From positions 1-8,853 of the forward strand of contig PWOD01000079.1 of NCBI GenBank assembly GCA_003557545.1: a DNA stretch of 8,853 nt. The letters are read 5' to 3'. The DNA is from a bacterium (GTDB taxonomy: Bacteria > T1Sed10-126). The position numbers were made by a program, and so were the translations under genes. The notes beneath the pieces were generated by a model. The model had not been told where the DNA came from. It saw only the letters and a program-made list of their open reading frames with translations, and did not search any database. This document shows, piece by piece, positions 534 through 8,853 of this stretch. The first letter of the stretch is position 1. Each line of letters opens with the position of its first letter.

Positions 534-1010
534 CTATAAATCGAACAGAGAATGGAGTATCTTAACCGATTGGTCAGCCCTGGCAGCCCGTACCAGTACC
601 GATATCTTAATTTCGGAAGTGGAGATCGTTTCGATATTAATTCCAGCCTCTCCCAACGCCGTGAACAGATCTCTGGCAACCCCGGGATGATTGCGCATAC
701 CGGAGCCAACGACTGATACCTTGGCCACCTCATCATCCACGGTGAGCTTTGTTCCACAGCCCAGCTCAACCAGCTCATCAAGGGTCTCCAGAGCCTCAGC
801 TGAATCAGTTCTACTTACCGTGAATGAAATATCATTCAAACTATCGCTGCTTACCGGACTGCTTTGAACAATCATGTCAACATTAATCTCCCGAGCAGCC
901 AGCGCACCAAAAATTTTACCGGCCATTCCCGGCTTATCAGGGACAGCATGAACTGTAAATCTAGTTTGATCCTCATCCACCGTTACAGCTCTTACCTGCA
1001 CATCTTCCAT
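534..1010 (-). CDS. Candidate separate aspartokinase beta subunit from an internal lysC start
   Basis: Inside lysC, Met247 (ATG at 1010-1008) is preceded on the coding strand by AGGAAGTGATC at 1026-1016, which matches the full anti-Shine-Dalgarno complement AGGAGGTGATC at 10 of 11 positions; the ATG follows after AGGTC. Translation from here would give a 158-residue protein beginning MEDVQVRAVTVDED and consisting of the two ACT domains. Bacillus subtilis aspartokinase II and Corynebacterium glutamicum LysC are known to make a beta subunit from an in-frame internal start at almost the same residue (about 246-250), giving an alpha2beta2 enzyme. The equivalent position plus the strong ribosome site make the same arrangement likely here. 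It remains an inference: the sequence cannot show that the shorter product is made. Confidence 0.6.
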   Translation of the reverse strand: MEDVQVRAVTVDEDQTRFTVHAVPDKPGMAGKIFGALAAREINVDMIVQSSPVSSDSLNDISFTVSRTDSAEALETLDELVELGCGTKLTVDDEVAKVSVVGSGMRNHPGVARDLFTALGEAGINIETISTSEIKISVLVRAARADQSVKILHSLFDL

Positions 1011-1748
1011 GACCTGATCACTTCCTGTTATTATTGTTCCAAGTTGTTTGTTAAAACTTGATCTAACATGTACCTCAACCTGAAATTTCCAGGCAACCTC
1101 AACAGCCCGAACCTGCAGAACTTCCGTCCCCAGGCTTGCCAGCTCCAGCATCTCTTCATAACCAATCCGCTCGATCTTTTTGGCCTCCGGGACCACCGCC
1201 GGGTTGGCCGTAAACACTCCATCAACATCTGTATAAATTTCACACTGATCAGCATCCAGAGCTGCCGCCAGGGCCACAGCGGTCGTATCAGAGCCACCAC
1301 GACCAAGGGTTGTTACATCCAGATTTTCTGTAACCCCCTGGAAACCGGCTGCTATGACGATCTTCCCGGCTGCCAGTTCTGCTTTTATTCGCTCCCCATC
1401 AATTCCCAAAATCCTCGCACGGGTATGGGTTAAATCAGTCTGAATACCCAGTTGATGAGCTGTCAGAGCCGTTGCTCTCTTCCCTGCCTCCTCAACTGCC
1501 ATGGCCAGCAAAGCACTACTTATAACTTCGCCGGTGGAAAGCAGGAGGTCCATCTCCCGTTTCGGTTGAATAGTAGAGACCTGATCAGCCAGTTCAATCA
1601 GCTCATCGGTAGTATCACCGAGGGCTGAAACAACCGCCAGTACCTGATGTCCCCGATCAGCCGTTTCAACTATCCGTTCAGCCACATTCTTAATTTTTTT
1701 TACATCTGCTACTGAACTACCACCAAATTTTTTCACATATAACGCCAC
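534..1748 (-). CDS. lysC: Aspartokinase (aspartate kinase) with two C-terminal ACT domains
   Basis: This 404-residue protein phosphorylates L-aspartate to 4-phospho-aspartate, the entry step to lysine, methionine and threonine. The kinase domain shows KFGGSS at 7-12 (the family's KFGGTS motif), STGE at 71-74, TLGRGGSDTT at 147-156 and TDVDGVFTANP at 173-183. Two ACT domains follow at about 264-310 (VPDKPGMAGKIF) and 343-400 (VGSGMRNHPGVARDLF, then ISTSEIKISVLV). The layout and length match Bacillus/Corynebacterium-type LysC, and there is no fused homoserine dehydrogenase. The start is GTG at 1748-1746, nine nt after an AGGTG ribosome site that overlaps the end of the preceding gene; only 14 nt separate the two genes. 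ACT domains imply feedback control by lysine and/or threonine, but the effector cannot be read from the sequence. No lysine riboswitch precedes it because it is internal to an operon. An internal in-frame start is described separately. Confidence 0.97.
   Translation of the reverse strand: MALYVKKFGGSSVADVKKIKNVAERIVETADRGHQVLAVVSALGDTTDELIELADQVSTIQPKREMDLLLSTGEVISSALLAMAVEEAGKRATALTAHQLGIQTDLTHTRARILGIDGERIKAELAAGKIVIAAGFQGVTENLDVTTLGRGGSDTTAVALAAALDADQCEIYTDVDGVFTANPAVVPEAKKIERIGYEEMLELASLGTEVLQVRAVEVAWKFQVEVHVRSSFNKQLGTIITGSDQVMEDVQVRAVTVDEDQTRFTVHAVPDKPGMAGKIFGALAAREINVDMIVQSSPVSSDSLNDISFTVSRTDSAEALETLDELVELGCGTKLTVDDEVAKVSVVGSGMRNHPGVARDLFTALGEAGINIETISTSEIKISVLVRAARADQSVKILHSLFDL
1016..1026 (-). 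promoter_or_regulatory. Internal Shine-Dalgarno within lysC
   Basis: Coding-strand AGGAAGTGATC, one mismatch from AGGAGGTGATC, lies just upstream of the in-frame ATG at 1010-1008. Spacing from AGGAAG to the ATG is 10 nt, a little long but workable. It encodes part of the linker between the kinase and ACT domains (residues TGSDQ), so it is under coding constraint too. Confidence 0.6.
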
Positions 1749-1762
1749 TATTGTTCACACCT

Positions 1763-2959
1763 TTATAAATTAAACTTTCCACCTTCACAGTACCATGCCG
1801 CCAGTTTTTCCCAGCCCCTCGAAACAAAAGGGGCATTTTTGGCAGCTTTTTCAGTAAACTCCAGACTGTTAACCTCACCATCAACAATCAGAAAAGGGAC
1901 AGGCTCTTTAACATGAGTTCTTTCCTGTATCGGGGTATAATGGTCAGGACCAAGGGCCAGGTTAAAAAACTCCCGTTGCCACTGTCGATAAACCGGTCCA
2001 ACAATATCCCGATCGAATTTTTCAATCATCTCAAGCTTTAATTGTGCATTCCCATCATGGCCTGCCTCATCCGGTGCCTCCAGATGCAAAAAAACCAGAC
2101 TGTCCGGTTCCAGGGCTTTAATTGCCGCCCGAGCCTTACCAAGCATATCGGTATCATAACCGCCGGTTGCACCGGGAACGGTCAGTTTCTGCATACCCAC
2201 GGCACGCCCCAGACCATTAATTAAATCAACCCCGGCCACAACGCTACCGTTTAGATTATAACGCTGTTGTATGGCGGGAAGTGGTTGATAACAGCCACCA
2301 CCCCAGGGCCAGATCATATTGGCCGGTTTCAATCCCGCCTGCCTCCGCTGCTGGTTCAACGGGTGTTCTTCCAGTATATCACGACTTTTAATCATTAGCT
2401 GCTTGAGCAGCTGACTGCCCGGCCCCCGGGGCCAGAGTTTTTCAACCGGACTACCCATTTGATCATGCGGACGAGCACAATCAAGAAGATCCAGGGCATC
2501 AGTAACCAGCAAACCTCGATATCCAAGCCCGGGATAGAAGGAAAAATCATCATTTCCCAGCTCCTCCTCCAGGTCAGCAAACAGCTGTTTTCCGAGGTCA
2601 CCAGCAAGATTGCCAGCAGAATAATCAGCCAGCCTCCCCTGCTCGTCAACAAAGATCAGATTGCAGCGATAGGCAATCTCTCCCTCTACCAGATCGATCC
2701 CCAGGTTAAAAGCTTCCAGTGCCCCACGCCCCAGATAATATTCACGGGGATCATAGCCCAGCAACGCCATATTGGCAACTCCCGAATCAGCCGGACTTTC
2801 CGCTGGAATGTTTTGCAAACAGACAGTTCGGCCCTGACGGCAAAAACTGTCCAGATTAGGCGTTTCAGCTGCTTCCCAGGGAGTTTTACCATTAAACTCT
2901 TCCTGGGGCCAATCAGCCATTCCATCGGGAACTATAAGCAATGTTGGTGGACGACTCAC
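1763..2959 (-). CDS. apgM: ApgM-family (cofactor-independent phosphoglycerate mutase-like) protein, probable homoserine kinase
   Basis: This 398-residue protein belongs to the archaeal-type cofactor-independent phosphoglycerate mutase branch of the alkaline phosphatase superfamily. The metal and catalytic residues expected for that fold are present: Asp12 in PDGMAD, Ser59 in PADSGVANMALLGYDP, Asp297 and His301 in EAPDEAGHDG, Asp339-His340 in GPDHYTP, and His349 in RTHV before EPVPFLI. The start is GTG at 2959-2957, which overlaps the hom TGA stop in a GTGA arrangement; a GAGGG site lies 12 nt upstream, so translation is probably coupled to hom. It sits between homoserine dehydrogenase and aspartokinase, and no GHMP-type thrB is seen. 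ApgM-like proteins in this context have been proposed, and in some anaerobes supported genetically as I recall, to act as homoserine kinase. I infer the same here. The alternative is a true 2-/3-phosphoglycerate mutase. The family is certain; the substrate is not. Confidence 0.9.
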   Translation of the reverse strand: MSRPPTLLIVPDGMADWPQEEFNGKTPWEAAETPNLDSFCRQGRTVCLQNIPAESPADSGVANMALLGYDPREYYLGRGALEAFNLGIDLVEGEIAYRCNLIFVDEQGRLADYSAGNLAGDLGKQLFADLEEELGNDDFSFYPGLGYRGLLVTDALDLLDCARPHDQMGSPVEKLWPRGPGSQLLKQLMIKSRDILEEHPLNQQRRQAGLKPANMIWPWGGGCYQPLPAIQQRYNLNGSVVAGVDLINGLGRAVGMQKLTVPGATGGYDTDMLGKARAAIKALEPDSLVFLHLEAPDEAGHDGNAQLKLEMIEKFDRDIVGPVYRQWQREFFNLALGPDHYTPIQERTHVKEPVPFLIVDGEVNSLEFTEKAAKNAPFVSRGWEKLAAWYCEGGKFNL

Positions 2960-4257
2960 TCCTGTTCAAAACCCTCTTCGATACGGACAAATTTTGGGGT
3001 CTGTCCAATATCTTCAAGTTGCGATATCTCTTCAAGGGCTGCTTGCATCGCACCTTCACGTGCCTCATGCGTGGTTAGAACAACCGGAACTAACCGGTCG
3101 GCAGAACGGCCCCGCTGAATTACTGTCTCAATACTAATATGATGTCGACCAAGAATCTCGGTCACTCTGGCCAGCACCCCGGGACGATCGACCGCACTAA
3201 GTCGCAGATAGTAACAGCTAACCAGTTGCTCAGTTGGCAGCAGTCTGGTTTTTTCCCAGGAATAATAAACTGCCGGAGTCGAATTAGTTTTCTGAGCGGC
3301 CAGTGATACCAGATCACTAATAACCGCTGTTGCAGTTGAGGGACCCCCAGCACCCTTTCCATATAACATTGAGGAACCGAGCTGAGACCCCTTCAAATAA
3401 ACAGCATTGTATTCGCCAGTCACAGCAGCCAGAGCAGATTTCTGGGGAATCAAGGTTGGATGAACTCTAACATCAACCCGGTGATTAAATTTTTTAGCTA
3501 TACCCAGTAGTTTTATCGAATAACCAAGCTGCCGTGCGTCCTCAAGAATCATCGGAGTTATTCCTTTTATCCCCTCGGTATAAACCGCATCAGGAGAGAT
3601 ATTGATGCCAAAGGCAAGTTCTGCCAGAATCGTCATCTTGTGGGCACTATCAAATCCTTCCACGTCAGCCGTAGGGTCAGCTTCAGCAAATCCCTTATGC
3701 CGGGCTTCTTGAAGTGCTTTATCAAACTCCAGACCACGATCTGCCATACAACTCAGAATATAATTGGTAGTTCCATTAATAATTCCGTAGATAGAATCCA
3801 GCTCTACACCTACAAGGGCTTCCCTGATCGTCCTGATGATCGGAATACTTCCTCCGACTGCCGCCTCAAAGCGCAGCCGGCCCTCCCCCTTACGGGAAAG
3901 TTCAAAAAAACTGCTTCCCTGCTTGGCCAGCAGCTCTTTATTTGCGGTGACCACATCAATCCCCCTGTTTAAAGCCTGATGAATAATTTTACCTGCCGGA
4001 TCAACCCCGCCGATAAGCTCAACCAGAAGATCAAGCTCTTCCTGCTCAACCATATCAGCAGCATCTGAATAACAACTCTGGTTGTCCAGCATAGCTTTTC
4101 TATCTGAATCAATCTGGGGATCAGCAACCGCCGTTAAAGCCAGCTCAACCCCGGCCTTCTGGATGATCTGTTCACGATTTTTCAGCAATTGGCAGACCGT
4201 CTGCAAACCTACTGTACCGAGGCCTGCAACACCCACCTTGAGTTTTTTAACCATCAT
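2956..4257 (-). CDS. hom: Homoserine dehydrogenase with C-terminal ACT domain
   Basis: This 433-residue enzyme reduces aspartate 4-semialdehyde to homoserine with NAD(P)H, at the branch to threonine and methionine. Numbering from the chosen ATG: GLGTVG at 12-17 is the dinucleotide-binding loop, TANKELLA is at 104-111, EAAVGGSIPII at 131-141, GTTNYIL at 162-168, and EADPTADVEGFDSAHK at 192-207 carries the catalytic Asp203 and Lys207. The C terminus (about 349-425, YYLRLSAVDRPGVLARV) is an ACT domain, the usual site of feedback control by threonine. The start is the ATG at 4257-4255, six nt after AAAGGA; the adjacent ATG at 4254-4252 is also possible, and the TTG at 4263 is too close to the ribosome site. 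Its stop overlaps the next gene's start by 4 nt. It is a monofunctional enzyme of ordinary length, with aspartokinase as a separate gene two places downstream. Confidence 0.97.
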   Translation of the reverse strand: MMVKKLKVGVAGLGTVGLQTVCQLLKNREQIIQKAGVELALTAVADPQIDSDRKAMLDNQSCYSDAADMVEQEELDLLVELIGGVDPAGKIIHQALNRGIDVVTANKELLAKQGSSFFELSRKGEGRLRFEAAVGGSIPIIRTIREALVGVELDSIYGIINGTTNYILSCMADRGLEFDKALQEARHKGFAEADPTADVEGFDSAHKMTILAELAFGINISPDAVYTEGIKGITPMILEDARQLGYSIKLLGIAKKFNHRVDVRVHPTLIPQKSALAAVTGEYNAVYLKGSQLGSSMLYGKGAGGPSTATAVISDLVSLAAQKTNSTPAVYYSWEKTRLLPTEQLVSCYYLRLSAVDRPGVLARVTEILGRHHISIETVIQRGRSADRLVPVVLTTHEAREGAMQAALEEISQLEDIGQTPKFVRIEEGFEQE

Positions 4258-4295
4258 TATCAATCCTTTTATTAATAACCTGTAACCGGTCTAAA

Positions 4296-6888: not shown

Positions 6889-8853
6889 CTATTTGCTAAC
6901 CTCAGACCAATCATAGCCAATCTTTATATTAACTTCGACAGGAACAGTAAGTTGGAAAGCATTACACATTATTTTTCTCAGTCGGCCAGCCAGTTCCTCC
7001 GCCTCCTGCAGCTGTACTTCCAGCAACAATTCATCATGAATCTGTAACAGCAATTCTGCGTTGAACTTAGCCAGTTCAGGGGGCAGTTCAACCATGGCTT
7101 TTTTTATCAGATCCGAGGCCGATCCTTGAATCGGAGCATTAACCGCGATTCTACGGGCGAATTGACGACGCATATATTTTTTACTGTTGATCTCATGAAC
7201 ATACCGCCTGCGTCCGGTCAGGGTTGTTACATAACCCTGTGATTTGGCCTGTTCAACAGTTTTATCAATATACTCTTTAACTCCGGAGTAACGCTGAAAA
7301 AATCTGTCTATGTAAGCTGCGGCCGCTTTTATATCAACCTCCAGATCACGAGCCAATCCATACTCACTCAAACCGTAAGCGATTCCATAATTAACCAGTT
7401 TGGCAATCCGACGATCGGCCCCGTCAACTTCATCCACTGATTTGCCACTAATTTCGGCGGCAGTTAAAGCATGGATGTCCTGGCCTTTTCTAAAAGCCTC
7501 AACCAGTGTTGAATCTCCCGAAAAATCTGCCAGCAAGCGAAGTTCAATCTGTGAGTAATCAGCCGCCAGCAGAATATAATCATCCTGCGAAGGGACAAAA
7601 GCGGCTCGAACTCTTCGTCCAAATTTTTCCCGTACCGGAATATTCTGCAGGTTTGGCTCACTGCTGGAAAGTCGACCGGTGGCAGTAACTGTCTGGTTAA
7701 ATTTTGTGTGAAGTTTTCCCGTTCTCCGGTTGATCGCCTCAACCAGGGGTATAAGATAGGTTGAAACAAGTTTTTTAGACTGTCGATATTGTAAAACTAC
7801 TGACGGTAGCCGATGCTTATCTACCAATCGATTGAGAGTTTCAGCATCGGTGCTGGGTTTTCCACTACCGGTCTTTCCCAGAACTGGCAGCTGAAGCCTG
7901 TCAAAAAGAATTTTTCGAAGTTGTTTAGGACTATCAAGATTAAACTGCTCCCCGGCCAACTCCCAGGCCTGCTTTTCCAGACGTGCCAGCTCACTCTCAA
8001 GTTCCCGCGAAAATTCAGTTAACTGTTCAGCCTCAACTTTAATCCCCGTCATCTCCATTCGAGCCAGTTCCCGGGCGAGCGGTTGTTCCAGTTGTACCAA
8101 AACCGACATCTGCTGTTGTTCCTCAATCTGATCTGAATAATCGGAAACCAGCTGCTGCAACCCGGCTAATAAACGACCATACCAATCGATTAGCTGATCG
8201 GCTTCCAGATAATCCTCACGATCGGCCAGTTCTTCACCGGTAGAACTCTTAATGATTGTTGTCAGATCATGACCTGACTCTGGAGCGAGCAGGTACGAAG
8301 CCAACTTTAAATCAAACGATTTTTTCAACAGACAGGGCTCAAATCCCAGTTGAAAAGCCCAACAGTAGAGAGTTTTCAAATCATAAAAAAATAACTTCCG
8401 TTGAGAAAAAATATCAAATAATTGCTGCAGATCGCTCTGATTTGAACTGTCACAGCCGATTGAGGTATGACCGGCAAAATCAGCCGTTCCAACTATCAGT
8501 TCAATGCTCTCCAACTGACTGGGTTTAAGCTGCTGATCAGCCGGATCTATCAGACCATATATCGGTCCTGAAGAGTTTTTTAAGCGGGAAATTAAATCGG
8601 CGAATGGAATTCCCTCCAATTCTCTCGTACCTGCGGTCAATTGGGGACTATTACCGGTCAACTGATTTATTTCTTCAACCAGGGAAAACAGCTCTCGGCG
8701 GCGGCAAAAATCGGCCAGTAACTCAAATTTTTCGGCTAAAAACCGACTATCTTCAACTGAGATATCTATTTCACAATCAGTTTTCAGAGTTACCAGTTTC
8801 AAAGCTTTTTGTAGCTCCTCCTGATGGTCTTCTATCTTTTCCCTGAACCTATC
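6889..8853 (-). CDS. polA: DNA polymerase I, C-terminal 654 residues (5' end beyond right window edge)
   Basis: The frame stays open from the TAG stop at 6891-6889 to the right edge. The 17 codons before the TTG at 8802 read DRFREKIEDHQEELQKA, typical of the end of the 5'-nuclease domain, so that TTG is Leu18 of this fragment and not a start. Counting from the edge, residues about 18-240 are the 3'-5' exonuclease-like domain and 240-654 the polymerase domain: TVTATGRLSSSEPNLQNIP at 388-406, motif A DYSQIELR with catalytic Asp432, motif B RRIAKLVNYGIAYG at 481-494, and motif C IHDELLLEV with His606-Asp607-Glu608. The enzyme fills gaps in repair and removes Okazaki primers. The exonuclease domain lacks the DxE and YxxxD motifs, so proofreading is probably lost, as in Bacillus and Thermus enzymes. 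The O-helix residue that is usually Phe is Tyr489. Full length is probably about 850-900 residues. Codon use resembles the neighbours. Confidence 0.98.
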   Translation of the reverse strand, partial: DRFREKIEDHQEELQKALKLVTLKTDCEIDISVEDSRFLAEKFELLADFCRRRELFSLVEEINQLTGNSPQLTAGTRELEGIPFADLISRLKNSSGPIYGLIDPADQQLKPSQLESIELIVGTADFAGHTSIGCDSSNQSDLQQLFDIFSQRKLFFYDLKTLYCWAFQLGFEPCLLKKSFDLKLASYLLAPESGHDLTTIIKSSTGEELADREDYLEADQLIDWYGRLLAGLQQLVSDYSDQIEEQQQMSVLVQLEQPLARELARMEMTGIKVEAEQLTEFSRELESELARLEKQAWELAGEQFNLDSPKQLRKILFDRLQLPVLGKTGSGKPSTDAETLNRLVDKHRLPSVVLQYRQSKKLVSTYLIPLVEAINRRTGKLHTKFNQTVTATGRLSSSEPNLQNIPVREKFGRRVRAAFVPSQDDYILLAADYSQIELRLLADFSGDSTLVEAFRKGQDIHALTAAEISGKSVDEVDGADRRIAKLVNYGIAYGLSEYGLARDLEVDIKAAAAYIDRFFQRYSGVKEYIDKTVEQAKSQGYVTTLTGRRRYVHEINSKKYMRRQFARRIAVNAPIQGSASDLIKKAMVELPPELAKFNAELLLQIHDELLLEVQLQEAEELAGRLRKIMCNAFQLTVPVEVNIKIGYDWSEVSK

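Follow-up and report, generated by a model that had tools for sequence, protein, structure and literature searches.

A candidate homoserine-phosphorylating enzyme of the ApgM fold encoded between homoserine dehydrogenase and aspartate kinase

What does a protein of the phosphoglycerate mutase-like ApgM family do between homoserine dehydrogenase and aspartate kinase? The window analyzed here, 8,853 nucleotides long, makes up an entire contig (C96); the assembly amounts to 2.15 Mb and is 91.9% complete. The gene in question lies on the minus strand at 1763..2959 (398 aa; GTG start at 2959, stop at 1763) and is defined by its ORF, NCBIfam and Pfam matches, tree position, signature residues, and AF2 model; the plus strand of the same interval is interrupted by stops throughout. 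It is flanked by hom (2956..4263, minus strand), encoding a homoserine dehydrogenase with an ACT domain, and by lysC (534..1748, minus strand), encoding a monofunctional aspartate kinase, both assigned by ORF, NCBIfam, and Pfam. The hom stop and the apgM start share 4 nt (GTGA), and lysC begins 14 nt past the apgM stop; ORFs and profiles thus agree with the order hom-apgM-lysC and the overlap described in an earlier, sequence-only reading of this DNA. Around apgM, NCBIfam and Pfam together identify hom, the aspartate kinase, a PfkB kinase, a SPOR protein, coaE, and polA. The frame of the polA-like ORF (6889-8853) is open at the contig end, and its 5'-3' exonuclease part is missing because the contig is cut, not because it was lost. 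The order pfkB-hom-apgM-lysC, with the 4-nt overlap, is also found in the sister genome T1Sed10_126. Since the order hom-apgM-lysC is kept there and recurs in other phyla, it is not due to chance.

The window protein matches PF10143 and PF01676, and the latter match, together with the two-metal ligands and nucleophilic serine described below, places it in the alkaline phosphatase superfamily. It scores 424 bits against TIGR00306 (apgM; cut-off 320) and 430.2 bits against NF003242 (PRK04200, cofactor-independent phosphoglycerate mutase, PGM; cut-off 426). Against TIGR02535, labeled "proposed homoserine kinase", it reaches 429.6 bits, below the curated cut-off of 446.3, and the sister protein reaches 402.9 bits. 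By cut-off, the phosphoglycerate mutase label of NF003242 therefore wins over that of TIGR02535 for the window protein; TIGR00191 (GHMP ThrB) is absent among its NCBIfam matches. The AF2 model (pLDDT 96.2, pTM 0.92) has 2zkt as its best solved structural match (TM 0.82/0.85), followed by 3kd8, iPGM, and phosphopentomutase. Two PGM-named profiles exceeded and 2zkt as the nearest fold are what would be seen if the protein were an ordinary archaeal-type PGM that sits within an aspartate-family operon by chance.

A tree of 98 ApgM-like proteins, from a quick search with SH-aLRT values, no bootstrap, and an arbitrary midpoint root, separates 64 proteins (clade B, which includes the window protein) from 34 others; the branches to either side of the midpoint both have SH-aLRT 99. 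The 34 comprise PDB entries 2zkt and 3kd8, the PRK04024 and PRK04135 types, and a third type represented by six proteins from Solincola; without these six, they form a set of 28 core PGM-type ApgMs. The window protein groups with the thrA-apgM-thrC proteins of Bacteroidota, apart from the PGM-type ApgMs (SH-aLRT 99 for the 64-row clade). Placed in the family tree, it thus falls in the TIGR02535/ThrB2 clade, in keeping with the sequence-only reading.

With the archaeal-type cofactor-independent PGM (PRK04024; PDB 2zkt, 3kd8), the window protein shares fold, metal ligands, and catalytic serine. The alignment contains D12, D297, H301, D339, H340, H349, and the nucleophile S59, as had been claimed from the sequence. 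The S59 codon (2783..2785, minus strand, counted from the GTG at 2959), predicted to specify the phosphorylated residue, lies in a loop reading ADSGVAN for PGSDVAN. These residues are kept in both groups of the tree, apart from H or E at the H301 position in clade A and one degenerate clade-B protein (L064). In BT2402, the clade member from Bacteroides thetaiotaomicron, the zinc sites, but not the calcium site, are conserved (PMC9765024).

Unlike the archaeal-type PGM, however, the window protein has none of R112, R113, R116, H147, R225, and K301 (2zkt numbering). Five of these are invariant in the core PGM-type ApgMs (28/28, including the PDB structures), and H147 occurs in 27 of the 28. The set is found in 0 of the 64 clade-B proteins, which at these six columns carry Y/H/F, S/N/A/T, H/N/other, Y/F, W (64/64), and E (63/64); W217 and P218 are present in all 64, and the combined W...E signature in 63. 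In the window protein, the residues are Y113, S114, N117, Y147, W217-P218-W219 (codons 2303..2311, minus strand), where PGM-type ApgMs carry L/x/R225, and E294 (codon 2078..2080, minus strand), so that all six PGM-type residues are replaced. E294 stands three residues ahead of the metal ligand D297, at a position that is Lys in 28/28 core PGM-type ApgMs. The pairing of the signature columns is supported by a profile alignment of the two groups; the signature of WPW plus Glu was defined on the same alignment as the clades and is descriptive, not an independent test. An attempt to transfer iPGM substrate residues onto ApgM by global alignment broke down in the transferase domain. The case for the role of these six residues is built on their conservation and on the position of K301 beside a metal ligand rather than on a structure with a bound ligand. 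The Solincola-type actinobacteria (L152-L157) carry up to three ApgM paralogs, and those of the third type match neither signature (G/E-S-P-F-S-K). Both ApgMs of M. jannaschii are reported to be active as PGMs.

A protein that had remained a PGM would not be expected to exchange all six of these conserved polar residues, and the window protein is therefore very probably not a PGM. The rest of the genome bears on the same point. An intact iPGM of 511 aa (TIGR01307, 700 bits) is encoded in the window genome, which answers the question of another phosphoglycerate mutase raised in the sequence-only reading and makes a second PGM unnecessary. Matches to PF01676 occur in four places in the assembly: the iPGM, a 396-aa frame at C48 that, from its length, is probably a phosphopentomutase, the window protein, and a phosphodiesterase/alkaline-phosphatase-like lipoprotein (C104), which was considered as an ApgM and rejected. 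A PF00300 match (C177) was considered as a dPGM, but its best score, itself below cut-off, is to alpha-ribazole phosphatase (cobC). The TIGR00306 search of the assembly returned the window protein as the only ApgM. Among the 51 genomes of our co-occurrence sample (the window genome and 50 reached through clade-member loci), another PGM is present in 45; in four, none was found, leaving aside two that have a clade-A fragment or a close relative with a dPGM. These four would suit an ordinary PGM, as do the profile labels and the retained catalytic residues, but with the Lys-to-Glu exchange beside the metal ligand, the iPGM, and the conserved association with hom, thrC, and lysC set against them, that explanation is improbable.

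The absence of a GHMP-type thrB from the window, stated in the sequence-only reading, was reproduced by profile search and extends to the assembly, in which nothing exceeds the TIGR00191 cut-off; the best match, at 34 bits (C188), was identified as IspE. No HSK2-type homoserine kinase (TIGR00938) was found in the assembly, and thrB was not found in the sister genome (G001/G002) either. A single protein of the assembly passes the shikimate kinase cut-off, so that a Desulfovibrio-type shikimate-kinase-like replacement is not indicated. What the assembly holds is thus the reverse of a canonical thrB without any other PGM: no ThrB over cut-off, and an iPGM. At 91.9% completeness, a thrB could have been missed in an assembly gap.

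The pathway argument is weakest at threonine synthase. The sole ThrC-like match in the window genome (TIGR00260, 174.5 bits, cut-off 167.1) is flanked by genes for a carbamate kinase and an ornithine/putrescine-type carbamoyltransferase, with two further carbamoyltransferase-like ORFs ahead of them. The sister genome has the same cluster and, elsewhere, a second ThrC of 222 bits, which was not found in the window genome. The only ThrC-like gene of the window genome may therefore be catabolic, and its biosynthetic ThrC may lie in a gap or have been lost. The cluster itself (L174:6489-11902; L173:2616-7925) is conserved and looks catabolic; in addition to the ThrC-like PLP enzyme, it encodes carbamate kinase and an OTC-type protein and has a pair of carbamoyltransferase-like ORFs.

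Gene context was examined at 80 relative loci. Across several phyla, clade members occur in the arrangements hom-apgM-lysC-cimA and hom-thrC-apgM, and in Bacteroidota as thrA-apgM-thrC. Aspartate-family linkage is found in 28 of the 51 genomes and needs five changes on the tree. ThrC exceeds its cut-off in 46/51 genomes, ThrB is absent from 42, and ThrC without ThrB occurs in 37. Previously, among 148 prototrophs, GapMind had assigned ThrB with low confidence in 29, and 15 of these have TIGR02535 (PMC7311316), and a gut-microbiome survey had found 278 of 300 ThrB2 genomes to be without thrB (PMC9026213). ThrB is missing more often from the clade sample (present in 9/51) than from the GapMind prototrophs (missing in 29/148), with a Fisher p of ~1e-15 that is uncorrected for kinship and sampling and is to be read only as strong ThrB depletion. 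The absence of ThrB does not differ with operon linkage, since ThrB is present in 5/28 linked and 4/23 unlinked genomes. The five genomes with both ThrB and an aspartate-family-linked apgM are L016, L024, L025, L041, and L044. In Mnemosynella archaea (L031:5090-7173; L127; L167), a GHMP thrB overlaps a clade-B apgM by 4 nt within one operon, and in Bathyarchaeota thrB adjoins thrC, with apgM about 8 kb away.

The nine genomes with ThrB and the Mnemosynella thrB-apgM operon suggest that some clade members do not replace ThrB. Phosphorylation of a different hydroxy amino acid, for instance L-threonine destined for the side chain of cobamides, or another aspartate-family step would accommodate them, and an L-threonine kinase has been proposed for a family member in a Dehalobacter corrinoid operon (PMC4285132). 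No cobamide gene was seen, however, among the 18 clade-B neighbors scanned or in the window, and ThrB is absent from 42 of the 51 clade genomes. Moreover, BT2402 mutants require threonine (PMC7311316), and their rescue by threonine points to threonine synthesis. We consider such a different substrate or step unlikely.

Homoserine phosphorylation remains the best reading because of the gene order, the assembly's lack of any known homoserine kinase, the other PGM, and the replaced PGM-type residues. These features and the retained catalytic residues, all observed directly in the sequence, make it reasonably probable that the window protein is a ThrB2-type enzyme that has lost the PGM substrate site and most likely converts homoserine to O-phosphohomoserine. 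The substrate switch from phosphoglycerate put forward in the sequence-only reading is supported by the loss of PGM-type residues; a role as homoserine kinase is weakened by the nine of 51 genomes that also have ThrB and by the position of the ThrC-like gene in a carbamoyltransferase cluster. The homoserine kinase idea for the clade, and with it the statement that ApgM relatives have been proposed as functional analogues, is already in the literature (TIGR02535/ThrB2; PMC7311316; PMC9026213). According to a personal communication cited in PMC7311316, BT2402 did not complement E. coli thrB, and we found no published assay of homoserine phosphorylation by any member of the ThrB2 clade.

In the mechanism we infer, the protein would be an ApgM-fold, two-metal phosphotransferase acting between the upstream Hom and ThrC. 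S59 would take a phosphate from a small phosphate donor, for which PEP, suggested by TIGRFAM, is a candidate, and the donor product would leave before homoserine binds, giving a ping-pong order. Homoserine would sit in a remodeled pocket in which W217/W219 and E294, perhaps with D245, replace the Arg/His/Lys set, and the phosphate would then move from S59 to the homoserine hydroxyl. A regulatory or otherwise non-catalytic operon member would need none of this chemistry, and non-catalytic versions do exist: in an Omnitrophota operon, hom-thrC-apgM-lysC-cimA (L064:1828-3042), the ApgM has T, H, L, and L in place of S59, D297, D339, and H340. Such a role is highly unlikely for the window protein, which retains all metal ligands and S59. 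The genome of L064, itself a possible pseudoenzyme, also carries a second clade-B copy with an intact signature (L175) on another contig.

The proposed ThrB2-type enzyme resembles and departs from known systems in several ways. With TIGR02535/ThrB2 proteins such as BT2402, it shares the clade, the signature residues, an operon with hom (often thrC), and the usual lack of a GHMP ThrB; it differs in its score below cut-off, a long branch, the altered serine loop, M272 for Y, and lysC instead of thrC as operon partner. With GHMP ThrB (TIGR00191), it would share the product and the position in the pathway, whereas the fold is unrelated and the ATP-binding GHMP motif is lacking. The shikimate-kinase-like homoserine kinase of Desulfovibrio (DvMF_0971, PMC5764234) is likewise a non-orthologous stand-in for ThrB, but has an unrelated P-loop fold, and the window genome has one shikimate kinase only.

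As a tentative extension, which we regard as possible rather than probable, the clade in bacteria and archaea may have turned an ApgM mutase into an ATP-free homoserine phosphotransferase, with the basic set exchanged for WPW plus Glu and a glycolytic phosphoester as donor; most PGM labels in the clade would then be wrong. New here are the residue-level case against PGM function across the clade, the extension of the proposal to another phylum, and the genomes that do not fit a replacement of ThrB. This rare, uncultured phylum has an unrelated iPGM, so a need for the gene in glycolysis can no longer be argued. Homoserine kinase is one of the steps most often missing from predicted amino acid pathways (20% of prototrophs; PMC7311316), and a residue rule that parts clade B from the PGM-type ApgMs would mend annotation in many phyla.
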